Origin: Cornus controversa
Taxonomy: Eukaryota; Streptophyta; Magnoliopsida; Cornales; Cornaceae
DNA length: 64,000 bases
NCBI GenBank assembly: GCA_026545225.1
Contig: CM048850.1
Location: forward strand, 3,162,001 to 3,226,000
Direction: 5' to 3'
Below, in pieces: positions 14,337 through 61,964 of this stretch (position 1 is the first letter of the stretch; the number at the start of each line of letters is the position of its first letter). The position numbers and the translations under genes are program-made. Under the pieces are notes generated by a model that was not told the DNA's origin, ran no database searches, and saw only the letters and a program-made list of their open reading frames with translations.

Positions 14337-14489
14337 CTTTTCAATTACTAATTAGTTTTATTTTATTTTTTAGTTTAGAAATTTTTTTTTTTTGCTACTA
14401 ACCTAATTTATTTTTTATTTTTATTTTTTTTCCCTTTCCGGTACTTCAATCACCATACCATTGAGCAAGAGGAAGATATTATTGATATC

Positions 14490-16328
14490 ATGGATGGTGT
14501 GTGTGGGAATAATGAGGACAACAATATTGTGCCTAATTCTGTTGTGAAAAAAGCGAGATTGATCAGAGACTACTATGTCCCAGAGACGTATAATTCACCA
14601 GCTGATTTTCAATTGCCTAATATCACAGCACAGAACTATGAGATCAAGCCCAGTATCATTCATATGTTGCCATCCTATTTTGGGTTGACTCATGAGGATC
14701 CGTACAAGCACTTGGATGAATTTTTAGAAGTTTGCTCATTAACGAAAATTCACAACTTCTCTGAAGATGCTTTTTGGATGCGACTCTTTCCATTCTCTTT
14801 AAAGGAAAAGGCCAAGTATTGGTTCAGATCTCTACCGGTGAGTTCTATCACTACATGGACTCAATTGCAAAATGAGTTTTTGAAGAAATATTTTTCGATA
14901 GGGAGGACCAATCAATTCAGACGAGCTATCACTGGTTTCTCTCAATTTGAGGGAGAATAATTTTTTGAGGCATGGGAGAGATTCAAGGACCTTCTTAGGA
15001 AGTGTCCTCATCATCAAGTTCCAATGTGGCAGTTAGTGCAATGTTTCTATGAGGGACTGACAGAAAGTAACAAACAGATGGTTGATGCATCATGTGGGGG
15101 CACTTTTATGTTAAAAAGTGAAGATGAAGCATGGACTTTGTTCGAGAATCTCAGTGACAATTCCTTACAATATGTGTCTTCATCTCGTTCGAGCAGACCA
15201 TCCAATACAAGGAAGACAAATGATATTTTTAAGATTGGTTCTGCAGATGCTATGTCTACCATTGTAGATGCTGTGGCACAGAGAGTGGTGCAACTCATGG
15301 CGGTTGGTCAAGTGCCAAATCCATCTTCTTATCCTTCTATTTTTGAGCCATGTGATTTTTGCTCGAGTCCTATGCATCATGTGAATAATTATCCTTCACT
15401 TGGACAATTTTTCAATCTTCCACAAGAGCAAGGGGCAGCAATTCAGCCCACTTTTCAACCTCAGAACTATGTGCCTTCACAATCATATCAAGAACAAGTT
15501 CCTATGCCACAAAGAATTTCTGCTATTGAGGCCAAGATGATAATTGTCCTAGCAAAACTTGAGAAGGTTGACTCTATTGTAGAGACAGTGCAAGCTATTA
15601 TAGCAACAGTTCAATCCACTACTCAACTGGTTCACTCTCACTCTCAGTCGATTGCCAAACTGGAATCTCAGTTTGGACAACTTGTCAATGCCGTGAGTAA
15701 AAGAGAAGAGGGGAAGCTACCAAGTCAACCAGCTGCCAACCCAAGAGGGGTTCATGTCCTCAACAATATTTCTTCTTTGAGCAACCCACACCATGAACAA
15801 TTTCAAGCCATCACCACTCTTAGAAGTGGAGAAATAAGTGACAACAAGGTGGGGGAGAAGAAGCTTGATGAAGAAGAGGTGACAAAGAGTCCTAATTCTA
15901 AAATTTCTCATGAGCCTAAGGTAAAATTGAATACTTTTAATGCCATTCAACATCCTCTAGATGAGAGTGATAGGTTTTTCATGGATGGCTTTGATGATTA
16001 TGTTGAAGAAGTTGATCCAGTTGATCTATCTCATGATGTTGAGAAGTCCATTGAGGGGGTGAATGATTTACTTGATGTAGTGGCCATGAAAAATACTCCA
16101 CCTTGGAGGATTCCGATTGAGCCATTGCCTATTCTTTCTAGCACTCCTCCGATGCCATTATTAGAGTCTCCTCCATGGGTAAAATTGAAACATGTTCCGT
16201 CAAGGCAAAGAGATGTGTTTTTTGAAATCAATGAGACCATTCCGGTTACTTTGAGTTCGATACAAGGAAGTGAGGATCATATAGGAGGGACAAAATTAAT
16301 TCTCCTCAAGAGATATGGCATTGGGTGA
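14490..16328 (+). mobile_element. Athila-like gag region, fossil
   Basis: This is the gag-type coding region of a Ty3/gypsy element. The first part has the retrotransposon-gag domain, with SYFGLTHEDPYKHLDEF, LEVCSLTKIHNFSED and RLFPFSLKEKAKYWF, spacing that matches Athila gag. The later part is long, rich in Q, S and P, and has CDFCSSPMHHVNNYP, a possible metal-binding knuckle. No protease, reverse transcriptase or integrase was recognised between here and the 3' LTR, so the element looks non-autonomous. It is broken at least once. A leader of about 270 T-rich bases separates PBS and gag. Confidence 0.85.
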
Positions 16329-20495: not shown

Positions 20496-20958
20496 CATGT
20501 CACCTTAATCTCAACTTCCACATCATACGTTTTATAATTGGAGTCAAATACTCTATCAGTAGGATTACGATCGATCGATCGTAATTGTAGCACTCCCTAT
20601 AATAACCCTTAATTCATTACAAGACCAATTTGGATCCATTCTTCATACCTAATACTCATTGGTTCACATGGAAAATTTCATAGCATAATTGAAAGCTATA
20701 CTATCCGTTCATTATCTCATCAAACAATTCACAAGCTTGATTATACAATCATTTGCACAATCGATACATGTATGAATCATGCAACCATTTCCATATGCAA
20801 GTACTATGAAGTGGAATTCTTACTCAATACATCCATAACTCAAAAATACATATATCCAAGGCATAGTTACCACTTACCATCATACATCTTCTTTCCAAAT
20901 TAGAAGTCATACACCATTACACATGATCAATGCATTTAAGTCCACATTTTGGACATGC
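20496..20958 (-). repeat. Tekay-like LTR continuation
   Basis: It carries ATTACGATCGATCGATCGTAAT at 20565-20586, in the same motif family as 13120-13265. It is the probable continuation of the LTR begun at 12746. The last five bases, CATGC, are the TSD of the next insertion. Confidence 0.6.
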
Positions 20959-23375
20959 TGTCACACCTCGATTTTTGTTCTCCAAAAACCAAGGGTGACT
21001 GGTTTGTCAGTTACTCGATTACCCCATGGTACCAGGCTCTAATACCATATTGTCACGTCCTGATTTTCATTCTTTAGAAATCGAGGGTGAATAGTGTTAT
21101 CACTCACCCAATCGCCTCACTAATCTCATCATCAATCTCATTGCGGAAGCTTAAATCGTGTGTACGTACATGCGATCGTTCGTTGTAGACTCAACAAGTC
21201 CCATTGGGGTCAATACATAACGCTCCGTGTCTATCCTAAGGCATTTCAACATTTCTGCCTAACATGTATTTTGATGCATCGAAATGATGATTTCGATACA
21301 TCATAGGTTTGATGCATCGCACAAGTATCGTCCAAAAATCACTCTCTTAACTTTTGGTTTTCTAAAATTCTGTAGGTTTTTTGATACATCGATTCTGCCA
21401 TTTTGATGCATCGATGGAACGATGCATCGAAATGGGCATTTCGATGCATCGAAGTGCCCGGACTGATGCACCTGCAAAAAATCCCGCGTCTATGCAATTG
21501 GCCATTTTTCGCATTCTAAGTCCCTTCTACTGTCATAATCATTTCATACAACTCTAAAATCATGCAAGAAAGAAACCTACATCATTCACAAGCATTAAAT
21601 CATACTCATGATCAATCACACCCTAAGCATTCATATCCAAGGACTATATATAGTGGAAACAAAACCAACATTTTCTATTCAACTCCAACAGTTATACATG
21701 GTTCATAAAAAGTCATTACATTTGGAACTATTATACATCAACCTACATCAAATGTAATTACAATACTTTTCACCTAATCCACGTGCCACAAGCTGGCATG
21801 GACATCTATCTACACATCAAAAGGTCAAAAATTCAAGGAATTTCAAAAGTCCATCAAGCTAATCATGTTTCATCCTCCATTAGTGCCTGATCTGAAAAGA
21901 GTTTGGAAATAGGGGGTGAGCACCACGACGGCTCAATAGGAATGATCCACCTAACTCTACTCTAATTCAGGCAACTATACATGGATGCATATGAAATCAT
22001 TATATGTCTATATGACAATTATCCATGCTTTTTACCCATAAACAATCACGTTTTATAAATCATGTGTGATGTTTCACATTTTAAAGTAAACACGTATATA
22101 TCAAATTGAAAAAGTCTCAATTCATGTGTATAACTCATGCCACATAAATCCAGAAATCAATTCAAATGGGGACTAGCTTATCACACCAATAGTAAGGGTC
22201 TATTTGGCACCCAAACTCTGCTTACGCTTCTTGGTTTACTATTTCGATGGATGCGACATCCGCTTGGTCAAGTTTTGGATCTTTCACCCTAGGGATCCAT
22301 GCCCTTATCTTAATTCTCAATGTTGTCATGCCCCAAAAACTCATTTTTCATATAGTGCATGTTAACACATAAATGCACATATCCCACACAATGCAATTCA
22401 TTTCATCAAATCAATGCATTTTCTTCCTCAACTCAAGCTTGTGACAATGTCATTCCACTCATCTCATAAAAATGATCATGCTTATGCATTTTTCAAGAAA
22501 TTCATATCCTTCATGCACAATTCTATATATAAACTCAGATTTTCACATTTTCATCAAATGAACACAATATCAACACAATGCATTCATAGTCTTAATTTCA
22601 CATATGCAACATATATTAGACCTAACTAATATTTTAGACATGTACATATGCATAAATCAAATTTCATAGATATAAATACATACACAAAACCCTAATCTTA
22701 CCAAATGTCAAACATATCTTTCATGTCACAGTTAAGGGACCTATAGAATTAAAACAAAGAAAAATTTCACACCCCTACCTCAAATCTCAAGCTTGGAATC
22801 TAACTTTGAAAATCCCAACCTTTTCAACTTCACAAAACGGAGGGTTCAAAGTGAAGCCCTTGATGTCCCCTATGCAATTCCCTTCATTGGGAACAACCCA
22901 ATCACACCTTAAGTGCTCCAAAATCTAGAGAGAAGGGAGAGAGATGAAGTGGGTGAGCTAGAGAGAGAGAGAAGAATCTGTAAAAGTGATATATCCCAGA
23001 CCCTTAGATATTTATGTCACTCCTAGGGGTGCGAAATGATCGATTTGCTCCCAAGCCACTTAACGTACCCTCCCGACCTCCGTTTTTGATTTTGAAAACT
23101 CCGATGGTCCTGAAATCACTTCCTTAACACTCTAAACATTTCATTTGGTCCATAACCAAAAATAATATTTTTCAAAATTTTTTCAAATTTTCTAGACTCA
23201 TTAAACCTCATCCCGGGGCTCCCTTGACCAAAAAGTTAAACTTTCCAATACCCTAATACAACTCTCCAAACATGTTTTTCGCATTCAAAACATACTAAAC
23301 ATCATTTAAAATGCATTTAAAGCAATAAATGATGAAAAAAATAAAAATCGATCAAACTTGGGCACGGTCTTTACA
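20959..23375 (-). repeat. Tekay-like solo LTR with TSD CATGC
   Basis: TGTCACACC...TCTTTACA is flanked by CATGC at 20954-20958 and 23376-23380. On its own strand, the internal end-like block TGACA plus TGGTATTAGAGCC lies about 100 bases before the true end (21020-21060). A GATGCATC palindrome cluster is at 21285-21470. The open frames inside are LTR sequence. Confidence 0.88.
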
Positions 23376-31369: not shown

Positions 31370-32176
31370 AGCCCAATAGACCCTCAATTACCGCAGAAGC
31401 TTAATTCTATTTTTTCACATAGATGTGCACAACTCCACTTTATTCAATCCCAATGGGCCCTACCTCAAATCATATCATCCTAGAGGGGATTTTATTTATC
31501 CGTACTCTCTTGAATCACTCACTTCCAAGACTCAACACTACATGTGTTTAGAATCTGAAACTGACACCTACATCATTGGATAGAGAATCCAAAAATACTT
31601 AATTTAAAAAAAAAAATCACACTCAATTTCAATTTAAAATGAAGAAGTTATGCCCGATTGAAGTTTGGGAAAATTTCAGAGCATGCTGTAAAAAGTGACT
31701 TCGATGCATCGAACAAGTATTGAAGAAGTATCGACCAAAAATAGCTCTCGGGACTTTTACATTCCAAAATCCTGTAGGTTTTTTGATGCATCGAACTAAG
31801 AACTTCGATGCATCGAACTGGGCTTCGATGTATCAAACAACCCAAAAACTGTAACTTTGCAAATGGTCATTTTTGACCTTCTAAGCCCTTTTTACCAATA
31901 TAAACCATTCTTACAAGCCCTAAATCATACAAGAAAGGAGTCAACATCATTAATAAGTTCTAAATCATCCTCATAATTAAATCATGCACTGATATGAGTC
32001 ATTCTCCATCATAAACATATTCCAATTCATATTGAAAACGTCCATCACTACATTAGTCCATCAATTGAAGTTTGGGCAAATTTCGGAGCATGCTGTAAAA
32101 AGTGACTTCGATGCATCGAACAAGTATTGAAGAAGTATCAACCAAAAATAGCTCTCGGACTTTTACATTCCAAAAT
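31370..32176 (-). repeat. Tekay-like LTR middle part
   Basis: This continues 24455-24639 after the SIRE-like insertion. It has GATGCATCGAA palindrome clusters at 31695-31850 and 32105-32130, and the first unit (31658-32063) of a two-copy tandem duplication of about 407 bases. The last five bases, AAAAT, are the TSD of the solo LTR that follows. Confidence 0.8.
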
Positions 32177-34697
32177 TGTGAAGACCCGAATTTTTTTTAA
32201 TTATAATTACGGGTAAGTGACTTTTAAGCATGATTAGTAGCTTAATGACATGCTTAGTGGATTTAAATAATCCTTGTTATGTTTTCAGTTACGTGTGTGG
32301 GACCGGAATGGATCCGAGTAACTTGGGAGGTAACTACGGACACTAGAGAGTGGCGTAGGGGTGTGGATGTAAGTTTAAGGGCATAAGTGAAGTTTTTGAA
32401 AGAGTGCAAATAATGGTTTGCAATTAATGATAAGTAAACCATAACAAGGAGCAATATGGAGAATGAGGAGGGGTTTAGTTGCAAATTCTAAATGCTTGTT
32501 CCATATGTGCTTGAAAGGTATGTATAGGGCCGTTATAAGAGAAACGGGAAAAAGTGGTAGAGAAACTTGTTCACTTGGAGCAATAAACATTTGGTGATAA
32601 TCTTGAAATGGTCTACCCACCTTGGAGTATGTGATTTACTCAGTGACGTATTCTGAAACTATTTGACCACCTTGGAGTATGTGATTTACTCGGTGAAGAA
32701 TTCTGAAACTATCTAACCACCTTGGAGTATGTGATTTACTCGGTGATGTCTTTTGGGACTATCCAATTGCCTTGGAGTATGTGATTTACTCGGTGAGGAA
32801 TCCTGAATTCACCTAACCACCTTGGAGTATGCGACTTACTCGGTGGCGGTGTTGAGATTGTGTGGAAAGTGTCTTAGGTTGCATGGTTGGTTAAGAATCG
32901 TCCTAAAGTATCGGGTGGAGTCCGAGAGAGTGACAAAGATACATAAATGCTTTCGTTGAATTGTGAAGCATGATTTATGTTTAATGCATTCCTATATATA
33001 TATGCATTGCTTGTAAATGAACATGGAATATATTGGATGATACATGTAATGTAGTGGCATGCATTCATGTAAGTCATGTCGGGTCGGCACTTAGGTGGGT
33101 TGGGATATCTCTACTGAACCGCCTTGGATACTGAACCGCCTTGGTACTCACCCCGCTCCCCCCCAACATTTTTCTGGTTATGCATCAAGGATGATGACAG
33201 GGACTTCATAGCTCTTATGGGCGTTTTAGGAACTCAATTGGAGTATGATGATCTTTTGGATATTGTGTACCTTGTGGCTATCTGTGCTGGCTTGTGGCAC
33301 GGTAATTATTTAGTTGTAGTCATGGTAGAATTTGTTGCATTTTAAAATTTATGTATGAATTCTTGTAATGACTATATGGAAAAACATATGATGGTATGTA
33401 TCTTTTGAGAAAAGTGTATGTGTTGGAGATCTATGGCACCATAGGACCATTTTCCTCTTGAGTTATGACTTCTTGTATGAATAATTATGAGTTAATGGAG
33501 TATGGGATGTATGTATGCATGAGTTGTTGAATGAAGATGGTAAGAAAAAAATGATGGAATTACATTTTAATTGTGAGATGCTTGTTATGTGGATATACTT
33601 GATGGCCATTAAGGCATTATTGTAGCCATTGGGGGGACATGTGCCCAGAAGTGTCCATTTTTGAGTTCAAGGTCTGAATGGAATTTTATTTATAGAAGGA
33701 GAATTGTATTAGTTTCAATGTGATAAATTATGGACCTTGTTTGGATTTAAATTGAGTAAAATATGCATGTTTTAGTCCAAGAGTTAGTAATCTGACCTAA
33801 GCCCGTTGATTTATGTGTAATTCGGGTCATGAGTTGAATTATTAGGTGATTCTAATTGGGTTGGAAAGTAGACATGTTGAGGATGAATCATGCCAAATTT
33901 TAGTTCAAATGGACTTATGGTTTGTGAGATATTTGAACTTGAAGTTAGGTTGAAAATTGGCCAAGAACAGGTTGCAGAATTTTAGCTTCTGTATTAACAA
34001 CACTTGATCGCTTTTCATGGTGCTCGATTACCCTTGTAAAAGATCCAGAGGCTTAGTCTCGGGAGTGAATGTGCTCGATCCTTTTTTTTTAGCGCTCGAA
34101 CTCTTTTACAACAAGCATTTGACAAAATTCTACCCAACTTCTAACGAGCATATCTTCTTCGTTTCAAATCGAAATTAGGCGATTCTTTTTTGAAATTGAG
34201 TATTTTTGAACCCTCTTTTCAATTGTTCCATTTTTAGTCCATGATCATAAACTTACAAAGATTTTCATATCCATAGTTGCAGGATAGAACCAATTTGAAG
34301 GGTTCTATGGTTGAGGCCCATTAGGAATAGTTGATGTTGAGTTGTATATGTATGTATATATACATGTGTATGTATGCGGTTAAGCTTCCGGGATAAATAG
34401 AGGTTAATATGTTCATTAGGGATTGATGGACAGACCCACCTCGGTTCTCAGGAATCGGGGCGCGACATCATGGTACCTAAGTGTGATGTCAGTGTGGTTA
34501 AGGTCGTTCACGGGGTGAGTGAACGGGTTCACACTCAGGATTTGGGTCAGTCCAGGGGAGTCCCGGTGGACCGGATTCTGGGGAGTGACTGAATGGTATC
34601 AGAGCATGGTACTTTATAGAGGGTAAAAAGGGTCCATTGGGACTAATGGACGGGTTAACCTCTGGTTTCTCGGGAGTAGGGGGATCGGGGCGTTACA
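32177..34697 (+). repeat. Tekay-like solo LTR with TSD AAAAT
   Basis: TGTGAAGACCCG...GGGGCGTTACA is flanked by AAAAT at 32172-32176 and 34698-34702. It contains five 50-base minisatellite units (32621-32870) and a TATA-like tatatatatatgcatt near 32994-33010. Two earlier end-like blocks precede the true end, at 34455-34475 and 34579-34606. The second of these is followed by TGGTATCAGAGC. The frame at 33124-33345 has no recognisable domain. Confidence 0.9.
32621..32870 (+). repeat. 50-bp minisatellite, five units
   Basis: CTTGGAGTAT recurs at 32621, 32671, 32721, 32771 and 32821, an exact 50-base period. Each unit continues gtgatttactcggtga with small changes. Confidence 0.95.
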
Positions 34698-34702
34698 AAA
34701 AT

Positions 34703-35522
34703 TCTATAGGTTTTTTTATGCATTGAACTGAGAACTTCGATGCATCGAAGCGCTTCGATGCATCGAACTAGGCTTCGATGCATCGAACTGTCCAAAAACT
34801 GTAACTTTGTAAATGGTCATTTTTGACCTTTTAAGCCCTTTCTACCAACATAAACTATTCTTACAACCCCTAAATCATATAAGAAAGGAGTCTACATCAT
34901 TAACAAGTTCTAAACATCCTCATAATTAAATCATGCACCGATATGAGTCATTCTCCATCATAAACATATTCCAATTCATATTAAAAACGTCCATCACTAC
35001 ATTAGTCCATCAAATGAAGCTAGATGCTCTTAACAAGCATTACATAAACAAGTCCATTATCTCATTATATTTAACAAGCTCATAGTCCAAGCATACACAC
35101 AAGTGATAATGGCTATTTCTCCCCAGCCACATGTTTTAAAATGGCATCTAGGGCGTGAAAAGACCAAAACGCCCCTGGGCCACTTAACGTACCTTCCCAG
35201 ACTCCATTTTTGATTTTGAAAACTCCCACGGCCTCGAAATCACTTCCTCTACTCTTTAAAATTTTCATCTAAGTCATTCCCAAAAATAAATATTTTTAGA
35301 AATTTTCTGGATTCCTAGGCCCACTTAAGTTGCATCCTGAGCCTCCATTTGACCAAAAAGTCAAACTTCTCCAAATCTTTCGAAAACTTACCAAAACCCT
35401 TAAAACATTTTCCAAACATGTTCTTCACAATCAAAACATGTTAAACACCACCAAAATTTCATTTATGGCAATTATAATGCAAAAAATGCAAAACTAGCCA
35501 AAATTAGTTACAGTCTCTACAA
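34703..35522 (-). repeat. Tekay-like LTR, 5' part (3' LTR of the pol at 35523)
   Basis: It resumes the tandem-duplicated unit and ends at 35522 with cagtctctaca. On the minus strand this is the LTR start, directly after the polypurine tract AAGGATGGGAGGT (35523-35535). Confidence 0.85.
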
Positions 35523-38500
35523 CCTCCCATCCTTAAAGAAATTTCATCGCTGAAATTAGGAACATACCTCAAGTAAAAAACAACTTGGGAAATTTTGAGT
35601 AGACTTCTTGTTCTCGCTCCCACGTAGCCTCCTCGACTTCGTGATATCTCCAAAGGACTTTAACCAAATGAATCGTCTTGCCCTGAAGCACTTGCACCCT
35701 AGTATCCAAAACCTGTACCGGTCTCTCCTCGTAAGACAAGTTCTCCTCTACCTCAAGATCTATCCAATCTAACGCATATGAAGGATCCAGTTCATACTTT
35801 CTCAACATCGAAACATAAAAAGTATTGTGTACACTTGACAATTGCGGTGGCAATGCCAACCGGTATACGACCTCACCTACTCGATCCAATACCTCGAATG
35901 GACCGATAAACCAAGGGGCTAGCTTCCCGCTACACCCAAACCTCATCAAACCCCATCGTGGCGAGACCTTTAAGAAGACATGGTCCCCCACCTCAAATGG
36001 TAAAGGCCTCCGCCTTTTATCGACATAGTTTTTTTGACGACTCTGAGCCGTAAGCAAATGCTGCCGTATGATCTTTATCTTCTCTATAGTTTCTCTGACT
36101 ATATCTGGCCCCAAAGCCACTGTCTCACCAAACTCTATCCAATAAACTTGTGACCTGCGAGGTCTACTGTACAAAGCCTCAAATAGAGCCATCTGAATAC
36201 TAGCTTGGTAGCTATTATTGTATGCAAACTCCACCAATGGAAGGTGATCCTCGCAACTGCCTCAAAAATCAAGTGCACATGCTCTAAGAATATCCTCCAA
36301 AATCTGAATGGTACACTCTGACTGACCATCTGTTTGAGGATGGAAAACCACACTAAAATGGAGGTCTGTATCAAGTGTAGCCTTGAAACTCTGTCAAAAT
36401 TACGACGTGAACCTCGGATCCCTGTCAGACACAATAGAAATTGGCACTCCATGCAGCCTCAAAATCTGATCAATGTAAAATCGATTAAGAGTATCCACAT
36501 CATCAGTCACTCTAATCGAAAGAAAGTGAGCCACCCTGGTCAATCTATCCACAATGACCCAAACCGTGTCGTGACTCTTCGTCGTCCTAGGTAACCCCAT
36601 CACAAAGTCCATAGTGATGTGTTCCCACTTCCACATAGCTATCGGTAATGGCTGTAACAAACCTGCCGGTCTATGATGCTCAGCCTTCACTTGTTGACAA
36701 GAGTGGCACTTTACCACAAATTGTGCGACATCAATTTTCATGCCCTTCCACCAATACTGTCTATGAAGATTGTGGTACATCTTGGTACCACCGGGGTATA
36801 CTGCAAGCCTGGAGCTATGAAACTCCCTTATAACCTCATCCCTACAAGCCAATGGAACAACCATTCTGCCTCTAAACCTCAGACCTCCGTCTGAATGAAT
36901 AACCCAATCCTCTACCGCTTTGCCACCCGTAATTCAAGTGTGAATGCTCTCTAACTCGATGTCATGCCTCTATTTCTCAACCACCCTACTCACTAAAGTT
37001 GGTTGCGATATGAGTGCGAACAAAGTGGCATGTCCACCACTCTCACTAAAGTATAACCCCATTTTTGAGATATCTTCCATCATCTTCCACTCAAGGATAG
37101 TAATACTAGCTAGAGTGCCATGTGACTTCCAGCTCAATGCATCGACAACCACATTACCCTTTCCCGAGTGATACTGAAGATCAAAGTTGTAGTCTTCCAT
37201 GTATTCAACCCATCTCCTTTGCCTCATATTCAAGTCCTTTTGTGTAAAAAAGGTACTTTAAACTCTTATAATTGGAGAAAACCTTAAACTTCTCTCCGTA
37301 GAGATAATTCCTCCACGTTTTCAAAGCAAAAATCGTATCCCACCAACTCCAAATCATGAGTCGGGTAATTTTGCTCGGGGATTTTCAATTGCCAAGAACC
37401 ATATGCAATAACTCTCTCGGTCTACATCAACACACATCCCAAATCATCCCGTGAAGCGTTACAGTAGATGACATAACCTAAATCGTGCTTAGGAATAATC
37501 AAGATTGGAGCACTAGTCAATCTACGCTTTAATTCCATAAAGGAATGCTCACAATCATCGTTCCACTCAAACTTAACTCCCTTACGAGTAAGCTTGGTCA
37601 TCGACATTGCTAACTTCAAAAAGTATTTCATGAAACGCCGGTAATATCCTGCCAATCCCAAGAAGCTACGTATCTCAAATACGTTCTTAGGCCTCTCCCA
37701 ATTCATTACCGCTTTTATCTTAGAAGGGTCTACTGATACTCCTCCTTTTGACACCACGTGTCCTAGGAATTTCACCTCCGTCAGCCAAAATTTACATTTA
37801 TCGAATTTGGCGTATAGACAATGTTCTCTCAGAATCTGTAACATTGTCCTTGAGTGGATCTCATGCTCCTCCATAGAAGAAGAATACATAATAATGTCAT
37901 CCACAAAGACCACCACAAACCTATCCAAATACACTCTGAATATTTGGTTCATCAAATCTATGAATGGTATCACTAGAAACTCATAGTGGCCATACCTAGT
38001 TCGAAAAGCTGTCTTCGGAATGTCCTCTTCCCTTACCTTCAACTGGTAATACCCCAACCTCAAGTTGATATTCAAAAAACAAGTCAAACCCTTAAGCTGA
38101 TCAAACAAGTCATCTATCTTTGATAAATGATACTTGTTCTTAATCATTGCTTACTTCAACTTATGGTAGTCTATGTATAACTGTAAAGATTCATCCTTCT
38201 TTTTAGCATATAGGACCGGAGCTCCTCAAGTTGATGTACTAGGTCGTACAAATCCCTTATCCAATAACTCTTGCAATTGATCCTTCAACTCGTTCAACTT
38301 AGCCAGTGCCATAGAGTTAGGTATGGTACTAGGAGCAAGATCTATGCTAAACACTACATCTCTCATCGAAGGTGACTCTATCAAGTCCCCCGAAAACATA
38401 TCCACAAACACTCTAACCACCGATGGAAATCCTTCACTAGTCACAATCTCATCATCCTTGGCTAATAAGCTAGCTAGGAAATGCGTTAGATGGTCTTCAG

Positions 38501-38645: not shown

Positions 38646-41097
38646 TGTGGAGACCGTGACCAACTTTGGTCGGTTCACTGATTTTCATCATTTTTTGCTA
38701 TGAACGCATTTTGAATGATGTTATGGATGTTTCGAGGGTGAAAAACATGCTTGAAAACATGTTGTGTAGTTTTTAAAATTTTTTAGGACATTTGGAGAAG
38801 TTTAACTTTTTGGTCAAACCGGGGCCTGGGATGCAACTTAAGTGGGCTCGAGAATCCAAAAATTTTTTGAAAATAATTATTTTTTGGAATGACTTCTATG
38901 AAATTTTTAGAGAGTGGAGGAAGTGATTTTGAGATCGTAGGAGTTTTCGAAATCGAGAACGGAGACCGGAAAGGTACGTTAAGTGGCTCGAGGGGCATTT
39001 TGGTCTTTTCACACCTAGGGACCTTAAAGGTTAATTTCTACAGAGATATTTTAGATATCTCTTTCTCATGCCAGTTACTCTCTCTCTGTCTTCTTTCTCC
39101 CTCTTCCTTCTCTCTAGCTTTTGAGGGCTTGAGGCTTGGATTCAGGATTTGTCGAAGAAGGGAGATACGCAGGGGATAGTTAGGGCTTCGGTTTGAACTG
39201 AACAAAGTCGCGTTTCAACAAGGTTGACATTTTTGGGATTTTGAGAAGTGCTTGGAAAACCTTCATTGTCGAGGTAGGGGTTCTCCTTCTCATTTACTTG
39301 TCGATTCTAGGGTTTCGGGTGAAGCGGTGAGAGCTAAGGGTGTGTATTGCATGTTTTAGAGATGTAAGAGGGGTGAGATAAGGTGTTTTTCTTCTTCTCT
39401 TGATTTTCTTGTATGCAATAGATGTGTATCTCCTAGTATGCATGATGTGAGGGACAAGTGTATGGAAATGTGGAAGAATGAGAGCATATATGCTTATGTG
39501 CTTAATGTGGTGTACATGTGTAATTATGTGCAAATGTGTAACATATATATGTTATGTGTTGTTAAGTGAGTTAAATGCATGCTATCCTTATATAGAAAAT
39601 GTGTGCATTGGTGAAGCATGACTAAAATGTGCTTAGATGATGTTTATGTGCATATGTGTATGATATGCTAGGTTTCACATGTATAAGTGGATATATGTGT
39701 GGCTTATAGAGATGGAAATGCATGCTATGTACCTTTATAACTAGCTTATGTATTGTGAAGCATGAGTCTTAAATGTTTGATTTATATGTTCGAAATGCAT
39801 ATATGAGGCTGTTGTGAGGAAACAGGGAAGTGTGGTTGAATTACCTAAACTAGGTCAATACTCAGTTATAGTTGTGGTCATGAAGTGGTCAAATCATCCA
39901 GAGTAGGTCAATACTCGGTCACGGTGATAGTGGTCAAGTCACCATGGAGGAGGTAAATTCTTGGTGACTGGGATCTAACTACCTTGGAGTAGGTAAATAC
40001 TCGGTGGAGATTCTAAAAAGTTGTCCAATCACTTTGGAGTAGGTAAATATTCAGTAATTGTGGTTTACTCACCTTGGAGTAGGTAAATACTCGGTGACGG
40101 TGGTCTGCCCACCTTGGAGTAGGTAAATACTCGGTGGCGGAGTTGGAATGGTGTGGGAAGTGTCTCGGTTATATGATTTGGTCAAGAATCATGTTAGGGT
40201 ATCGGGTTGAATCCGAGAAAGAGACAAGCGTATGATTAATGCTTTGATTTGAATTATGAAGCATGATATGTGTTTAATGCATCCCTGTATATATATGCAT
40301 TGTTGTGAATGAACATGATGTATGTTGAATGATACATGTAATGTAGTGACATTTCGATCGTACAAAATGCCCATTTTGCACAATTGAAACACTCATTTCG
40401 CATGATCGAAACCCCCATTTCGATCGTGCAAAGTGGTGGTGAATTATGGTGATTTTTAGGGTCCAGATAGGGGCAATATCGCACAATCGAAACCCTCATT
40501 TTGATCGTGCAAAATAATGCAGGTTCAAGGTCCCAAGAAGGTGAAATTTTTGCATAATCGAAATACCAGTTTTGCACAATCGAAATTACTATTCACAACA
40601 TCTGTCCAAACTTCGATTCGACGTAATTTCTTCGTTTTAGATCGGAATTAAGTGTAATTTTTTTTTAAATTGAGTATTTTTGAGTTCTCTATGGAATGGT
40701 GTAGGACTCAATCTCAGATTCCAAACATATGAAGTGTTGAGTCTTGGAATTGAGTGATTCATGAGAGTGTGGATAACTAAATACCCACTAAGTTTATATG
40801 ATTTGATGTAGGGCCCATTGGGATTAGATGAGGTAGAGTTATGCACACCTATGTGCACTAATATAGTTAAGCTTCTGCAGTACTTGAGAGTAATGAGGGT
40901 TCATTGGGCTTAATGGACAGGCTAATCTTCGATCTTTCGGGAGTCGGGAAACTGGGGCGTGATAATATGGTATCAATAGCTTGATACTATTGCACGAGTG
41001 TGGTTAAGGTTGTTCGTGGGGTTGAGTGAACGAGTTCACACTCGAGATTTGGGTCAGTTCGGGGGAGTCCCAATAGACTATATTCCGGGGCATGACA
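38646..41097 (+). repeat. Tekay-like solo LTR with TSD TAAAT
   Basis: TGTGGAGACCGTGACC...GGGGCATGACA is flanked by TAAAT at 38641-38645 and 41098-41102. It contains a CCTTGGAGT-core minisatellite of about seven loose units (39850-40140), a TATA-like gtatatatatgcatt (40288-40302) and paired inverted motifs of the cgatcgtgcaa type (40350-40595). An internal end plus PBS-like block lies at 40951-40980. It splits the LINE. Confidence 0.9.
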
Positions 41098-41102
41098 TAA
41101 AT

Positions 41103-43741
41103 GCTCCCAATTCTTTCATCAAAAGGTTAAGTAGAGGCAGACAAAAGATGCGATTACCTTTTTACTAAGCGAAGAGGGAAACTACTTTGAAGATCCGGTT
41201 ATGGTTAAAGAATGGTTGGTCCAGTTCTATAAGAATCTTTACAAGGGTTCTCCTGGTGGTTCAACAGATTTTCATGTTGCCAGAAGAGTTTTAGATGAGT
41301 ATGAGAAAGATGGGTTGGAGAGATTTGTTGATGAAACCAAAATTAAGGCGGTTGTTATGAATTTGAGTCCAGACAAGGTGCCAGGTGCAGATGGTTTCCT
41401 CTTCAGTTCTTTCAGAAATACTGGCATGTAATTGGGCAGGATGTTATCAAGGCTGTCCAATTCTTTTTTTCGACTGCAGACCTGCCTCAAGCAGTAAATA
41501 GCACCTTTATCAGTCTCATTCCAAAAAAGGATCAAGGGTTGAAACCTTCAGATTATAAGCCAATTTCTCTTTGTACTACTTTATATAAAATTATTTCCAA
41601 GGTGATGGCAAATTGGATGGCCATGGTGTTACCAAGGCTGGTTGGTTTGGAACAGGCTGCTTTTGTAAAAGGGTGACGGATTCATGACAATATTATGTTG
41701 GCATTTGATTTGGTGCGGGGTTTTAATAATAAGAGGGTTGTTGCCACTATGGCTATGAAGATTGACTTGAGGGAAGCATATAATTCAGTTTCATGGGATT
41801 TTATTTTGGAGGTTCTGAAGCTTCATGGTTTCAGCGATAAATGGATTCAATGGGTCAGAACTTGCATTTCTTCAGCCAAGTGTTCCCTCCTCATAAATGG
41901 TGTGCCAGCGGGCTTCTTTCAATCAAGGAGAGGCATTAGGCAAGGATGTCCTCTGTCTCTTTTGCTCTTCACTTTAGTTACAGAATACTTCAGTAACTCA
42001 ATGGATTTGGTTGTCAATGATGGTTCAATTTCTCTCTCAAAGGTGGCGATGAAGGCTGGAGTGAAGGTATCACATATTTTCTATGCCGATGACCTGTTCT
42101 TGGTAGTGAAAGCTAATATCTCTACTGCCCGGGGTTTGCTAGATGTTTTTGATCATTTTTCCTTAACTACTGGTTTGCACATTAGCAAGGAGAAAAATGA
42201 AATCATTTTTTCAAAATCTGTGAGAAGGTCCAGAAACTTGACACGAATCGTCTCTTTTAAGAGATGCAGTTTTCCTCTTCAGTATTTAGGTCTGTCGTTA
42301 AATGCCACCGTCTTGAAGAAATCTTACTTTGATTGATAAAATCAATTCTCGTCTGATAGTTTGGAATGCAATAAACCTCTCACTTGCTGGAAGAACAGAG
42401 TTAATCAAAACAGTGCTCCTTTCCTTTGTTTATTATTAGTCTTTTGGATTCAAAATCCCATGGACAGTCAAGACTCAAATAGAGAAGAAGATCAGAGGAT
42501 TCCTCTGGGCCATTCTGAGAATAAACACAAGCTTTATTTTCTGAAGTGGGCTAAATTTACGCTTCCTAAATCAAAAGGTAGGCTCGGCATTAGGAAAATC
42601 GGAGAGTTGGATTTTGCTGCCAAATGCCAACTGTTATGGGATTTCATTATAAATGAAGACAAACTATGGGTAACCTGGTTCAGGAAATGATATCTCAAGG
42701 TAGGGGATTTTTGGTCCTGTATTCCTTGGACTCAATCCTCTTCATTTTGGCTTAATATTCTTAAGGCTCGGGACTTCATGCTTCACCATTGCTTTTTTAA
42801 AATTAGGGATGGGCCTCGGTTTGGGCTGACGACAGATCCATGGTGTGACATTTTGACGTTACTTCAAAAGTTTGGTACCAGATTATGCTGTGAGTTTGAT
42901 AAGTAGGCTGTCGTTGCATCCATTATTGTTAATGGTCAGTGGCAGCTTCTGTCATGAGTTCCCAATGCTACACAGAGTATATATAATTTGTTCCTCTCAT
43001 GAGTGGTAGAGACACAATTCAATGGAACCATAGGGTCTGTTCATTTAAATCAATTTGGGATCATTGTCGAGAGTAGGGGAAACGTGTTAAATGGAAGGAC
43101 TTGGTGTGGAGTGCGTGCAGACCAAGAGCTGTTGTGGTGACTATGATGGTTCTTCAAAATGCTATTCCTTCTTTTGTTAACCTGCAGAAGAGAGGGATAC
43201 TGATTCCGCTACTTTGCCATTATTGTTATGGTGGTCCAGACACTGTCAACCCCATCTTTGTTCGATGTCAATTTGCTGTTGCAATTTGGTGGTCTATTTT
43301 TGACATATTGTAGGTTTTATATCCAACTTCCCTTTCATTGTCGCATATGGTGGAATGGTTTCTGGCACATACAAAAGGCAACTCCTTAAGAAATAAATTT
43401 CTTAAAGCCATCTTTTCCACTACTATGTGGTTTATCTAGGGTTAACAGAATTCAGCTTTACACCAGGGGTTTAAGAAGACTTCACATGAAGTGGCCCAGG
43501 GAGTTATCTTCGAGTGCCTTATGCTCTTGGATCTCCAAATTCAGGATCTCACCATCTTATTCTCATGTTGATGATCATGTACTGGTTTTAGTTCATTTTT
43601 ATTTTTTCTTTGTATTGGAAATGGTTTTTTTTCATTTCCTTTCCATTTTATGATCTTGAGGGTATGCCTTCCTCTTGTACTTGTACTCTATTGAGTCTTT
43701 GGCTCGTTCATTTTTTTATACATCCCCATTCAAGAAAAAAA
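41103..43741 (+). mobile_element. L1-type LINE ORF2 remnant (RT and zf-RVT) with poly-A end
   Basis: This is non-LTR retrotransposon ORF2 on the plus strand. The pre-RT motif NLSPDKVPGADGF lies near 41365-41400. Then come the RT fingers and palm: FISLIPKK, DYKPISLC, MKIDLREAYNSVSWDF (about 41750-41800), RRGIRQGCPLS (about 41925-41960) and the catalytic FYADD (about 42080). Thumb sequence reaches 42690, and a zf-RVT-like end with CHYCYGGPDTVNPIFVRC lies at 43101-43313. Frames break at several places, including an in-frame TGA after AFVKG near 41675. A non-coding tail ends in poly-A near 43733-43741. No intact ORF remains, so this is a dead copy. Confidence 0.85.
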
Positions 43742-44059
43742 ATTCATATATAATTCCTAATGAACACAATGACTCATAATGGACTCATAATTGGCATTCA
43801 ACACATGCATAAAACATAATTTCAATCTAGTTTATGCTAGACAATTTCAAATTTACATATACATCAATTTTTATATAAGAAATCATGAAAATCTCATGTC
43901 ACAAGTAAATGACCTATAGAATCAAGGCTAAGAAGGAATTCACACCCCTACCTCAACTTTGAAGCCTCTTCTAGCTAAATCCCAGAATTTTTCTAAGTTT
44001 CACTTTGCCAAAAATTAACTTTGTTCGGTTCAAATCGATGCCCTCAACCTGTAGAACAC
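43742..44059 (-). repeat. Tekay-like LTR part, left of inserted solo LTR
   Basis: The aggaattcacacccctacctc block near 43930 matches 5008, 22770 and 46450 in the same LTR context. It continues at 47186. The last five bases, AACAC, are the TSD of the solo LTR. Confidence 0.7.
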
Positions 44060-47000
44060 TGTCACACCCCGAAACCCGGACCGCCGGGACTCCCCCGGAC
44101 CGACCCCGAATCCCGAGTGTGAACCCGTTCACTTAACCCCGTGAACAATCTCAGTTACACTCAATGCATTAGCATCAAGGTTTGATACCATGCTATAACG
44201 CCCCGATTTCCAACTCTCGGAGAACCGGAGATTAAACCGTCCATTTAGCCCAATAGGCCCCCATTGCCCTCATTCACCGCGGAAGCTTAACTCAATTCTT
44301 GCATATGAATGCACCCAAATCCACCTTAACTAATCCCCATGAGCCCTACATCAATTCATGCACCTTAATGAACATTTGCTTGCCCACACTTTTTAAAAAT
44401 CACTCACTTTTGAGCCTCAAAACTTTCTGTGTTTGGAATCTGGAACTGAGGCTTACACCATTGGATAGAGAATCCAAAAATACTCAAGTTCAAAAAAAAC
44501 CACGCTCAATTCCTATCTAGAACGAAGAAATTACGTCAAAATGAAGTTTTGGAAAAAGTTGTGAATAGTAATCTCGATCAATCGAGATTGGCATCTCGAT
44601 CAATCGAGATGCATCTCGATTAATTGAGATTTTGACCCCATCAATCGAAGCAAACACCCTCTCGGTATCTTGGACCTACATTATTTTGATTAATCGAAAT
44701 TGGGACTTCGATTAATCGAAATAAGGCTTGAAAATATATAAAATCTCGCAACCATTTCGATCAATCGAGATGGGCATCTCGATTAATCGAAATGGGCATT
44801 TCGATTGATCGAAATGCACTGCCCGAAAATTCCCAAACACCTACACAAGATCAAATTGAACCCAAATATCAACCAAACCACCTTAGATCATTCATATTTC
44901 ATATAAATCATCTACCATTGATATAAAATCATACTCGCACATCAACCTATACATTTGAATCTCAAATCTTACATAATCATAAAAATTTCCCTAGGTTCAC
45001 AATACACCCAAAACTCAAGTGTATAAACCATCCTTAATTCCCAAATTCATTTCCATAACACCAATCTCACACTCAAATCACTTTCATAATTGAATTCATA
45101 CACCAAAATGAATCATTTCTTTCACGCACACAACCCATTTAAAATGGAAACATCATCAAAATGAATAAAATGCCACCATGGGCGCTACACATATTAAACC
45201 GTTGTCCTTTCACATCCAACAAGTTTATAATCCAATACATACATCAAAAGTACATATGTCCAAAGTACAACCACAACTCAAAACATAAGTCCCATGCCAC
45301 AAGCCGGCATGGATAGCCACAAAATGCTCAACATCCAAAAGATAGCATAAACACCACTAGAGCTCCACTTGGACACTCATGTCCCATCCGTCATCGGCGC
45401 TTTATCTGTAAAAGAGTTTATAATAAAGGGGTGAGCACCACTGCGGCTCAGTAAAGGTTCTCCAACCCTTCTAAGTGCCGACCCGACACGACCTATATAG
45501 AATGCATATGAATACACTACATGCCACGTCCACAATCTCACAAACACATCAATAATAGGATTTTAAGAGAATTGCACATATCACGAATCATGTATAACAT
45601 TTTCAAACATAAAAGCATTAAAGTGAGTAAATGCTCTCTCTCTCGGTCCTCATCCGATACCCTACATGATTGGCCCGCTCCGAGGATCATGTAACCTTGG
45701 ACACCTCCGATAACCATCCAATGACCGGGACAACTCCGAAAGGTCATTCTACCATAGCAATATATGGGATTGCTATAGAGTGAGGGGGCAACTCCGAGGC
45801 TCACAAATCATGGGCATTCTCCGATAATCATCCTATGACCGGGACAACTCCGAGGGGTCATTAGTATTGGACATACTCCGATCCTAGGCATTAAGCCTTA
45901 GTATGGTGGGTCCACTCCGAGGGCCATACGTAGTGGATAATTTTACCACACCTCACAACACGGTTGGACCACTCCGAAGCCCCGTGCACCTCATTTGCGT
46001 CATTTTTCCCGCAACTTCCCACATATGCAATATGAATGCATAAACACATGACATTTTATTTTCATGCTCAAATCATGCTCATTGATACTAAAAAGAAGTA
46101 ACAAGCATATTTTCCATCACCACATACCACATATAGCACATATATGTATAACACATGCATATATCATCTCATATGCATACAACTTCAAAATTAGCATATT
46201 TTACTCATGCTACACTCAATGCATAATTTTAGCACATAGAACTAAACATGCATTCAACAACCACATTCCCACATATAATCACATATATGACACTTGGTAC
46301 ACATTTTTCCACATATACACCAAATTGAGCACATAATGCCTATGTATCAATTTCTTACACTCACATACTTCAAACCCACATGCTACCACCAACACAATAT
46401 ACACAATTGTGAAAAGATAGGACTCTAGAGAAGAAGAAAATATAAATTTTCACACCTCTCACCATCCTAAAGCATGTGAAACACAACCTACACCTCTCTT
46501 CTTCACCCGAAACCCTAGAATCGACAATTAGAAGAGAAGAAGAACCCCTACCTCGAAAATGAAGGCCTTCCAAGTACTTCACTAATTTTCCAGCGGAGTC
46601 TACCTTACCGAACCACCACTTTGATCGGTTCAAAGGGAAGCCCTAGCCGTCCCCTACGTATCTCCCTCCTTCGGCGAGTCTTGAATCCAAGCCGAACGAG
46701 TCCGAAATGTAGAGAGAAGGGAGAGCTTTGAAGATGGAGAACTTTAGAGAGAGAAAGAGGCGTGAGATATGGCTGAATATCTCTGCCACTGATATTTAAA
46801 ATATCTAGGGTTCGCGAAAAGACTAAAATGCCCCCGGGCCACTTAACGTACCTTCCCGGACTCCTTTTTCGATTCTAAAAACTCCCACGGTCTCGAAATC
46901 ACTTCCTCTACTCTCTAAACATTTCATCTAAGCCATTCCCAAAAATAAATATTTTTAAAAATTTTTCGGATTCCCGGGCCCACTTAAGTCGCACCCCGGG

Positions 47001-47180
47001 CCCCAGTTTGACCAAAAAGTCAAACTTCTCCAATTGTCCCGAAAACTTTCCAAAACCTTAAAAACACTTCCCAAACATATTCCTCACACTCGAAACATGC
47101 TAATCACCACTCAAAATGCATTTATGGCAATTATAATGCGATAAATGCAAAACTGGCCAAAATTGGTCACGGTCTCTACA
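44060..47180 (-). repeat. Tekay-like solo LTR with TSD AACAC
   Basis: TGTCACACCCCG...GGTCTCTACA is flanked by AACAC at 44055-44059 and 47181-47185; at 3.1 kb it is the longest LTR here. It has an internal second end (taacgccccgattt preceded by gataccatg, near 44185-44215), a TTCGATnnATCGAA palindrome cluster (44565-44820) and an array of about nine ACTCCGAGG units (45670-45990). Its sequence near 46690-47180 is closest to the fragment at 1-486. Confidence 0.9.
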
Positions 47181-47185
47181 AACAC

Positions 47186-60700: not shown

Positions 60701-61964
60701 GGCTTTAGTTTCCAATATCTAACCACTGCACTCTTCAACCTAGTGGAGGCTACAATTGTAATCTTTATGGATGAAATTAGAAGAACTTTTTGTTTCTTTT
60801 TTGCCTTGTGGGATGGTTTTGCTTCAAAAGCTGAGAGTCAGGCTTTGTTGATTGTGCTGAGAGAAGTTGAGAGCAAATGTTGGTCAAGATCCATGAGGAA
60901 AGGAAAAAAGAGGGGGTGGGGGTGGCAAGCATTGTGATAAAACAGGTGAAAAGCATATTTGCATCCAATTTCTCTTAGAAAGTTCAGGGGCCATTTCTGT
61001 TCTCCTCATTAGGACTTGGGAGACCTATGTTTTTCTGGTTGTTCTGCTCTTCTTTTCTTTTGAAGGATTATTTTGTCCTACATCTTTATGACTTAGGAAA
61101 TTTCTTGAGAAAAAAAATTTACATATTAACTGCGAATACTTTCCTTTTTCCCCTTAAAAACAATATTGCATCAGGGAATGTGTTAGAAATTAGAATAGAG
61201 TTTTAGGTGTCCATGCTCTAGTGTATATATATATATATATATATATATGTATTCAAATATGCATCATTGAATGTTGAAAAAATACGAACTGTAAAATCTT
61301 TTTATTGATAATATACGTTTGGGATTCAACTTTGAAAAGGGAAAAAAAGAAAAGCTCCTGCATATGTGGTAGAAACTTACTGGACCTTTTAAATTCCATG
61401 TGCAGATATCTGACCATCTTCTTCCGAGGGTTACAATTGTTGGAAGGCCAAATGTTGGTAAATCAGCATTATTTAATCGTCTAGTTGGGGTATTTAATTA
61501 TCAACCTTTTATCTTGTTCTATCTTACTTTTAAAATATATGAGTTCCAATTCTTAGGAAACAGAAGGGCTTATAATTTTGATTTCAATGTTGTGAAAGTT
61601 TTTGTTTTTGTTTTTTCTTTGGTGATTTTTTATTTTAATAATATAATATTATTAATTTCAATTCTTGTAGGGTAACAAGGCTATTGTGGTGGATGAACCT
61701 GGGGTTACAAGAGATCGCTTATACGGTAGATCCTTTTGGGGAGACAATGAATTTATGGTAGTGGATACTGGAGGTGTTCTCAGAACTTCAAAGTCACAGA
61801 CTGATATTATGGAGGGATTGACTATCACAGCAGCTATTGGTATGGAGGGGATTCCGCTTGCCTCGAGGGAGGCAGCTGTTGCCAGGATGCCCTCACAGGT
61901 TGAGAGACAAGTCAATGCCGCTGCGGAAGAGTCTTCTGTCATTATATTTGTGGTTGATGGCCAG
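51721..61964 (+). CDS. DER: Plastid Der/EngA-type double-GTPase, 5' part (four exons)
   Basis: This is the host gene for a plastid-targeted Der (EngA) GTPase, which in the family assists 50S ribosome assembly; the Arabidopsis relative is EMB2738. Exons by splice sites and phase: 51721-52090, 52208-52275, 61406-61489 and 61671-61964, giving 272 residues with no internal stop. Residues 1-65 are Ser/Leu/Pro-rich, like a transit peptide. Residues 70-105 are acidic. G1 GRPNVGKS is at 159-166, the G2 GVTRDR threonine at 187, G3 DTGG at 206-209, and IIFVVDGQ ends the visible part. Introns begin GTGCGT, GTTAGT, GTATTT and GTATAC, and acceptors end in AG. The rest of domain 1 (NKxD motif), the second G domain and the KH-like end lie beyond the window. 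The ATG is the first in frame and gives a full transit peptide. Confidence 0.9.
52331..52500 (+). mobile_element. RTE-type LINE 3' fragment
   Basis: The frame [20 protein letters not shown] resembles the C-terminal phrase of plant RTE ORF2 ('GRPKKTW.EVIKKDL'). It is followed by a ggcccccattgga / ccaattcaaggatg tail. It is a short remnant within intron 2. Confidence 0.5.
53109..54123 (+). mobile_element. L1-type LINE, endonuclease part
   Basis: This is an APE-type endonuclease domain of ORF2. Motifs seen are [15 protein letters not shown] (near 53215-53260), [22 protein letters not shown] and the end block [21 protein letters not shown] (near 53670-53735). The following [10 protein letters not shown] and 'PFWFENMWL' phrases continue it. 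In-frame stops occur, for instance after 53737. A short local duplication (agatctcacagaca and the gcaagagtccaagttg block) lies at its start, 53109-53260. It is split at 54123 by an Athila-type solo LTR and resumes at 55533. Confidence 0.85.
54124..55527 (-). repeat. Athila-like solo LTR with TSD CAAGG
   Basis: The edges are TGATGTTG and CGCCGATCA; on its own strand it begins TGATCGGCGTTGAATG like the LTR at 18809. CAAGG flanks it at 54119-54123 and 55528-55532. A short block, ccttgggctgatttgagttgaaatatgg, occurs twice near 55258-55313. It lies in the LINE, inside intron 2. Confidence 0.92.
55533..57312 (+). mobile_element. L1-type LINE, RT remnant, zf-RVT and 3' end
   Basis: This continues the endonuclease part. 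Motifs are [18 protein letters not shown] (near 55750-55800) and [22 protein letters not shown] (near 56125-56190). After 56390 the sequence jumps to the [12 protein letters not shown] post-RT region, so the YADD-bearing middle of RT is missing. A zf-RVT-like block follows with [19 protein letters not shown] (56865-56930) and ends with RRRLFGLSN-type tail sequence. The 3' end is a poly-A of about ten after tatatat, near 57303-57312. Several stops make it a dead copy. Confidence 0.85.
57430..57700 (+). mobile_element. RTE-type LINE 3' end
   Basis: The phrase [20 protein letters not shown] (near 57505-57560), then catttggctaacccctttcc and gggataaaggcaatgatgg with a ggtgatgatgat tail, is the typical RTE 3' end with a simple-repeat tail. 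Confidence 0.65.
58250..58690 (-). mobile_element. L1-type LINE 3' fragment, reversed
   Basis: On the minus strand, [26 protein letters not shown] matches the LINE at 57030-57110. Upstream of it come sequences like the HLLLHCP zinc-binding block. It lies opposite in orientation to the gene. Confidence 0.75.
58691..59611 (+). other. Unrecognised sequence, possible Copia-like remnant
   Basis: An open frame at 58992-59309 (105 residues) reads [18 protein letters not shown] and [19 protein letters not shown] do not recognise its family. The flanks have gagggggagagctg near 59560, like a Copia 3' purine tract, and a SIRE-type LTR end follows after the MITE. Confidence 0.35.
59620..59969. mobile_element. 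hAT-type MITE with TSD GTCAGGAG
   Basis: The terminal inverted repeats CATAGTTGTTAAAGG and CCTTTGACAACTATG are flanked by GTCAGGAG at 59612-59619 and 59970-59977. The subterminal regions are packed with AGGCGC and its reverse (59636-59700 and 59865-59950). There is no coding capacity. Confidence 0.93.
59978..60300 (+). repeat. SIRE-like LTR 3' end remnant
   Basis: The order (ttccacgtaaaaatcttgtg, agacctattcactccc, cttgcgcaactctc, then cacatcagagcc) parallels the LTR end and PBS at 24800-24886. It is a degraded remnant. Confidence 0.5.
60370..60660 (+). mobile_element. L1-type LINE zf-RVT fragment
   Basis: The start [14 protein letters not shown] followed by a cattgcccctttgct stretch fits the C-x-x-C...H-x-x-x-x-C zinc-binding end of plant LINE ORF2, in more than one frame. 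It is a short remnant. Confidence 0.5.
61221..61250. repeat. (TA)n microsatellite in intron 2
   Basis: A pure run of alternating T and A, about 28 bases long, ends in tgtattc. It lies about 155 bases before exon 3. Confidence 0.9.

Follow-up and report, generated by a model that had tools for sequence, protein, structure and literature searches.

Short palindromes in the LTR retrotransposons of this region form clusters that are real, genome-wide and ordered. We read them, with a probability of roughly 0.7, as phased site arrays for a dimeric DNA-binding factor, whose specificity would have switched in a concerted manner. The sites fall into a few discrete core types, set by the site centre; Tekay and Athila elements have types A, B and C in common.

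Site arrays in the window

The window is the whole stretch of 64,000 nucleotides that was analysed. Palindromes or paired motifs could be read in its sequence at every place where the original prediction had put them. A type A array (sites YTCGAT-nn-ATCGAR; identified from the sequence, a shuffle count and an alignment) is found at 44565-44820, within a solo Tekay LTR of type A on the minus strand (44060-47180). This LTR starts with TGTCAC and ends with CTCTACA, and is flanked on both sides by the TSD AACAC (44055-44059 and 47181-47185). The sense of the Tekay LTRs is fixed by a minus-strand ORF at 35569-36261, read by eye as an integrase C-terminus with a chromodomain-like part, which adjoins the homologous Tekay chromovirus LTR at 31370-35522.

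Type C arrays (TTCGATGCATCGAA) are present at 21285-21470, at 31695-31850 and, with three perfect sites, at 34735-34790. The type B array (TTTCGATYRTGCRAAA, in both orientations) occupies 40340-40600 of the Tekay LTR at 38646-41097. Type D sites (TACGATCnATCGTA) are located at 10525-10725, with one perfect site, others degenerate and then TATATAAAAAGG at about 10773, and also at 13120-13265, in a Tekay-like LTR end starting with TGTCACACCCC at 12746. No strand is attached to any of these arrays. A reverse transcriptase frame at 41677-42336, by eye from a non-LTR (LINE-like) element, stands between the LTR blocks 38646-41097 and 44060-47180.

The segment 12746-20958 had been taken for one Tekay LTR. 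By eye it is a Tekay-like LTR end, followed by an Athila element. Two ORFs with Athila-type gag/pol frames (14379-16328, plus strand; lineage by eye, from likeness to the frames of L007 and L008) belong to the element that holds an array with a GC-flanked core (GGGGATCGATCGCCCC, TGGGCGATCGATCGCCCA) at 16691-16803, likely the counterpart of the arrays before ORF3 in L007, L014 and L023. Palindrome clusters are not limited to Tekay, as Athila elements carry them too. A lone 22-bp palindrome, ATTACGATCGATCGATCGTAAT, is found at 20564-20585 with no cluster around it.

In terms of palindrome density, the whole window has 33 perfect palindromes of at least 14 bp against 6.0 in shuffles, with a (TA)n tract at 61224-61248 accounting for 12 of the 33. 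Near-palindromes (6-bp arms, 2-bp gap, at most one mismatch) were compared with 1,000 dinucleotide shuffles per stretch, and the excess over shuffled sequence held in six of the eight stretches. There are 12 at 44565-44820 (mean 2.3), 8 at 10525-10725 (mean 1.8) and 4 at 34735-34790 (mean 0.45), counts that none of the 1,000 shuffles reached. The 5 at 31695-31850 (mean 0.8) were reached by one shuffle, the 5 at 13120-13265 (mean 0.9) by three, and the 4 at 21285-21470 (mean 1.25), the weakest of the six, by 23. No excess was seen at 20560-20590, where the one palindrome was matched in 233 of 1,000 shuffles, nor at 40350-40595, with 1 near-palindrome against a mean of 1.7 and 833 of 1,000 shuffles reaching that count. 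The motif of the latter stretch, described beforehand as paired, is indeed repeated in both orientations and is itself asymmetric, which explains why near-palindromes are not in excess there.

Density alone is not diagnostic, since spots outside the arrays are as palindrome-dense as the arrays: among 250-bp windows the top near-palindrome count (9) is at 49001 and one of the 7s is at 27751. What sets the arrays apart is rather a motif common to the cluster. Counting perfect or near-palindromes was rejected as a detector on its own, as it missed type B completely. A lone 32-bp perfect palindrome, CACGTATTTGTTTGTCGACAAACAAATACGTG, was also seen at L022 6411.

Spacing and core types across the genome

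In the 772 Mb genome TTCGATNNATCGAA occurs 21,656 times, against 49 for the reversed pattern, and the type B motif occurs 3,797 times (1,886 + 1,911) against 0 for its control. Half-sites ATCGAR and YTCGAT were counted genome-wide at gaps of 2, 5, 8 and 11 bp, with reversed controls. Pairs with an 8-bp gap (22 bp centre to centre) number 17,063 (control 119) and those with a 2-bp gap (16 bp centre to centre) 9,286 (control 142). The off-register gaps of 5 and 11 bp give 214 (control 97) and 108 (control 343). In sampled arrays, 222 of the 237 neighbour distances of at most 50 bp are 16-17 or 20-22 bp, and the sites are often arranged as 22-16-22 quartets.

As for the spacers, their likeness within a copy was scored on the middle 4 bp of 8-bp spacers. 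Overall 0.48 are identical, against 0.39 for random and 0.80-0.92 for the sites. Values above random were obtained in Tekay type A (0.66) and, before ORF3, in type B (0.54), and Athila type A before ORF3, at 0.34, is at the random level. At least in Athila type A the spacing is held and the spacer sequence is not, which fits helical phasing of a bound protein and not recent block duplication. Tandem duplication followed by spacer divergence could be the origin of the fixed spacing.

The core had been predicted to differ from copy to copy; it differs instead by type. The type A core is YTCGAT-TR/CA-ATCGAR, centred on TG, CA or TA in 185 of 204 type A sites, and type C has a GC centre in 48 of its 72. 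Type B is asymmetric, so that the expected retention of symmetry does not strictly hold: the single site lacks it, and type B sites occur in both orientations, often, not always, as inverted pairs. Other cores are TACGATCnATCGTA (D), GGGCGATCGATCGCCC (G) and TTTGAGGCGCCTCAAA, the last forming an array at L019 1910-2060, in an element of no assigned lineage.

Site sequence tracks type rather than place. Identity between sites of one type at non-homologous places (Tekay LTR, Athila LTR and Athila pre-ORF3) is 0.83-0.86, and between unlike types that share a place it is 0.60-0.74; calling with at most three mismatches to consensus inflates the within-copy and same-type values. The difference between A and C is not made by the calling, because both types were called with one consensus.

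Concerted change of cores within an element, as originally predicted, is supported by homologous sites in Tekay and Athila LTRs, where the spacers remain alignable and the cores are A in some copies and B in others. Between type A and type B arrays of Tekay LTRs the spacers are 0.74 alike (A-A 0.87) and the sites 0.66 (A-A 0.89), with a different core at every aligned site. The sole Tekay B-B pair has 0.73 at aligned sites, below its spacers (0.83). In Athila LTRs the A-B values are 0.71 for spacers and 0.67 for sites; before ORF3, where divergence is greater, they are 0.49 for spacers and 0.70 for sites. Athila A and B cores differ at nearly all sites, the pre-ORF3 array of L039 having 2 type A and 5 type B calls.

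A tree of 19 Tekay LTR flanks was built, leaving out the type B copy of the window (39640-40345; flank aligned at 36-44%) as well as L029 and L031 (fewer than 150 bases after trimming). On the best tree the four cores require five changes, where at least three are needed and shuffling gives a mean of 9.3. Cores are therefore strongly clustered on the flank tree, but they do not merely follow it, as type B is not one clade: grouping its 6 rows was rejected (p-AU 0.0047). Type A as one clade was not rejected (p-AU 0.40). Stars mark only 3 of the 16 inner branches, less than half of the columns are filled in the A copies, and the starred branches alone are compatible with one origin of B.

The right flank of the type B copy L040 matches seven of nine type A copies at 83-85%, L031 at 76% and the type A copy of the window at 46%, or at 74% in another alignment. 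The spacers of L040 are 66-79% like type A and 81% like the type B copy of the window. Recombination next to the arrays thus seems likely in at least this case. The best reading of these comparisons is that factor specificity switched more than once and that both retrotransposon lineages use one set of codes.

The Tekay arrays are near the LTR 3' end, by eye roughly 2 kb downstream of its TATA-like tract, and no TATA box was seen near those of types A-C. For Tekay we rejected the idea that a TATA box always follows the array: there is one at 10773 and one at 13305, but with respect to LTR sense they stand on opposite sides. The Tekay copies L041/L087 and L044/L086 have two separate type B arrays in one LTR: besides the array in the usual position there is a second, closer to the LTR 3' end by a few hundred bp. 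In L042, at about 433-612 (minus strand), a sequence resembling by eye the 18S ribosomal RNA 3' end is found within a Tekay-like LTR fragment, by a type B array.

Athila elements and ORF3

The second lineage (L003, L010, L025-L028, L039, L049-L085) is one that we take to be Athila from the resemblance of its frames. Its arrays occur at two places, the LTR and the region between the pol end and ORF3. Copies of types A, B and C have pol frames, then an array, then an ORF before the 3' LTR.

TATA-like sequences were scored with no shuffled control, and copies within a type are related by descent; on this basis a match of at least 6 of 7 positions is found 111-164 bp past the array in 14 of 14 Athila LTRs, being top-ranked in 13 (L046 has an equal match at 52 bp). 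Before ORF3, 15 of the 18 arrays of types A-C have a TATA-like box 28-33 bp past their last site. In type A it is at 29-33 bp in all seven arrays. In type B it is at 30 bp in two of three, the box of L066 being 52 bp from the last strong site. In type C a weaker TTAAAAT is at about 28 bp in six of eight arrays (five by program, L051 by eye), with none at that distance in L049 and L059. Among the four GC-core arrays, a TATA-like sequence is present in L007 and L023 and absent in L014 and L008.

The two arrays of an element agree in type. Fourteen LTR/pre-ORF3 pairs, 2.4-6.1 kb apart and in the same orientation, were assigned to one element by distance and orientation, and the majority core is equal in 11 of the 12 callable pairs (5 A, 2 B, 4 C), a figure biased towards agreement for A and B, whose pairs were taken from motif lists, whereas the 7 C pairs were found via flanking sequence. 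The pair L057/L058 has a 2:2 tie in its LTR, the two non-C calls being GATGGATC variants, and L052 and L060 gave no call at two mismatches. For Athila LTRs of types D and G no such pairs could be formed: L007, L008, L014 and L023 showed no D core, and a fixed-motif search for an LTR start gave no match.

Three type G Athila copies (L007 209, L014 4353, L023 7830) share an 18-bp perfect palindrome, TATGTCCAATTGGACATA, which is within ORF3 or near it. By eye, the segment between the halves of the Athila pre-ORF3 array (about CTCTCGGGACTTTG...CTGCAAT; L003, L025 and L039) resembles the middle of Tekay arrays (L040, and 44060-47180 and 31690-31860 in the window). The likeness suggests shared ancestry or an exchange of whole arrays.

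Regarding ORF3 itself, two frames were scanned. The best Pfam match was PF20167, below the curated cut-off of 45 bits (L014: E 3e-10, 40.7 bits; L003: E 7e-4, 20 bits), and no DNA-binding domain was found in them. The same partial match to PF20167 is reported for a sunflower Athila ORF in the available part of PMC11728184. An acidic stretch followed by a heptad pattern is present in two type A frames and in the type G frame, and none of five frames has a hydropathy window of 1.7 or more. These features would fit a nuclear dimeric regulator better than an envelope protein, without bearing on DNA binding. No ORF3 match was obtained in the window, with its Tekay copies, and ORF3 was seen only beside Athila arrays.

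ORF3 is a candidate for the factor because it diverges far more than integrase between types (alignments of at least 90 residues; type A integrase from one copy, L010). Between A and B the identity is 64-70% for ORF3 and 84-89% for integrase. Between A and C, ORF3 has 30-37% over most of the protein and 42-47% in the C-terminal fragment of L079, with integrase at 79% in L084 and at 63% and 57% in pieces of L083, a more decayed copy. Between A and G, ORF3 falls to 26-35%, with 75% for integrase, 53% for the C-terminal end of pol and 71-76% for the protease region, in which two decayed A copies have 77-81% in common. Between copies of one type, ORF3 identity amounts to 81-89% in A, 81% in B, 71-72% in C and 94-95% in G, and integrase within B has 88%. 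The divergence between types is at most suggestive of an element-encoded, motif-binding anti-silencing protein.

A proposed binding factor, rival readings and known systems

In the mechanism that we propose, a sequence-specific protein would bind, as a dimer, to neighbouring sites in helical register (22 bp, about two turns, or 16 bp). The Athila arrays, upstream of the LTR TATA-like tract and of the separate TATA-like box before ORF3, would most likely serve as upstream elements that activate two promoters of one element or protect them from silencing; Tekay LTRs carry arrays of this kind with the same codes. Several specificity types of the factor would exist (A, B, C and others), and in an element lineage that switches type all sites would change together, because only sites matching an available factor are useful. 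The arrays, their preferred spacing, the match of type between places and the concerted replacement are observed, and binding, activation and selection by the factor as the driver of the switch are what we infer.

A narrower proposal, which we consider speculative and rather unlikely, is that Athila ORF3 is a dimeric, type-specific activator or anti-silencer of its own promoter and LTR, coevolving with the sites into mutually blind types, with Tekay, for which the window showed no ORF3, benefiting from it in trans by taking over the code of the Athila type that is active. If so, distantly related retrotransposon lineages of one genome would have a shared, switchable regulatory code. An element-encoded factor would amount to a VANC-like system in LTR retrotransposons, a dominant plant repeat class, in which lineages share, and perhaps steal, each other's code; it would also account for the phased palindromes that this genome holds by the tens of thousands. 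Type-specific binding, matched waves of activity of Athila and Tekay types, and hypomethylation of the elements matching the expressed ORF3 would be expected.

The main rival differs from the mechanism above in who makes the factor, and is in that respect a version of it: several related dimeric host transcription factors would bind the sites, and the lineages would converge on the factor that allows expression in a suitable tissue, with no element-encoded partner. Plant LTRs do use host factors. Tekay and Athila share types A, B and C though ORF3 was seen only beside Athila arrays, and the missing DNA-binding domain in the two scanned frames points the same way. To our knowledge, however, host factors rarely change specificity, yet homologous arrays use at least three cores, and five changes are required to place the four cores on the best Tekay flank tree. 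The perfect palindromes, at 14-22 bp, are moreover longer than most plant factor sites. We hold this alternative to be a real possibility, at clearly less than even odds. Were it true, the arrays would still be a large natural series of concerted binding-site turnover with the geometry preserved. Recombination that swaps arrays between LTRs or lineages would make core and flank disagree with no concerted change at the sites. The split of type B on the flank tree, the type B array of L040 beside a type A-like right flank and the middle segment that Athila and Tekay arrays seem by eye to have in common all agree with it. But swapping only moves existing arrays, and it cannot produce A and B arrays whose spacers correspond at each site and whose cores differ. 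We consider this alternative unlikely.

Neutral repeat dynamics (slippage, template switching in reverse transcription, palindrome correction) could also spread and homogenise a motif in arrays without function. Tandem arrays are common and family-specific in plant LTR retrotransposons, according to the available part of PMC11963269, the 22-16-22 quartets could duplicate as blocks, and the Tekay type A spacers are alike within a copy. Duplication would, however, homogenise spacers too, and those of Athila type A before ORF3 are near random; nor does it account for one core in two arrays several kb apart with unrelated spacers, and in two lineages. We find this improbable. Equally doubtful, or slightly more so, is a role at the RNA level, with hairpins or kissing loops in genomic RNA (dimerisation, packaging, recognition of own RNA) whose symmetry is kept as the sequence drifts. 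Self-complementary sites and inverted type B pairs could fold, and the Tekay arrays are in a probably transcribed R-U5, where the type A outer position has U-G 24 times against 2 for C-A. Before ORF3 that position has C-A 29 times against 7 for U-G (4 against 1 in Athila LTRs), so the bias expected of RNA pairing (U.G tolerated, C-A not) differs in sign, speaking against pairing before ORF3 and in favour in Tekay. Over all sites, sense-strand C>T changes, which keep U.G, number 58 against 48 pair-breaking G>A, which is no overall bias. A single type B site is not self-complementary in its inner six bases, and a 25-bp spacing, tolerable to a hairpin, is 158 times rarer than 22 bp. Strand asymmetry and spacing together leave RNA hairpins unsupported, though the Tekay outer positions alone would fit.

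In terms of known systems, the HIV-1 DIS keeps its symmetry with a core sequence that differs between subtypes. The arrays described here differ from it in having many sites, a preferred DNA spacing and no consistent RNA-type substitution bias. The LTR enhancers of Tnt1 and ONSEN have repeated, partly palindromic host factor sites upstream of the LTR TATA box; we know of no concerted core switching in them, and of no alternative codes shared between lineages. Similar arrays with other cores may be present in soybean, Solanaceae and other plants. Among titles and the starts of abstracts, with subscription literature mostly outside the scope, no description of palindromic arrays in Tekay, Athila or plant LTRs was found, and the literature matches listed for the motif letters themselves were set aside as looking like chance oligonucleotide matches.

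Accessory genes of plant LTR retrotransposons can have their own promoters or encode nuclear proteins or probable DNA-binding domains, according to the available parts of PMC7264820 and PMC11963269. Like Grande gene23 and the Retand antisense ORFs, Athila has an extra ORF behind pol with a proposed regulatory protein; the accessory gene of Grande has its own promoter, and Retand has tandem arrays between pol and the 3' LTR. Unlike these, Athila ORF3 is in sense orientation and matches PF20167 (below the cut-off), not TRP28, and the same parts of the two sources do not mention palindromic sites common to an LTR and an internal promoter (PMC7264820; PMC11963269).

The closest parallel is with VANC proteins of the Mutator-like VANDAL elements of Arabidopsis, which, in the available parts of the sources, bind short, tandemly repeated motifs that vary from one related element to another and evolve in concert (PMC5735166; PMC10398659). 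The original claim that no described element feature does this was therefore too strong, as VANC target arrays also change in concert (PMC5735166). They differ from the present arrays in that LTR retrotransposons of two lineages share motif types here, and in the palindromic or paired sites with a preferred 16- or 22-bp spacing and spacers that are not fully homogenised. VANC repeats have one orientation, whereas type A and C sites are palindromic and type B sites occur in both orientations; the string "palindrom" is absent from the available text of both sources. In both systems many copies of a short motif are found in non-coding parts of a mobile element, related elements differ in the motif, and the units within an element change together. 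Motif density matters for VANC targets, for which coevolution with the element's own sequence-specific protein has been proposed, and the same may apply to the arrays described here.
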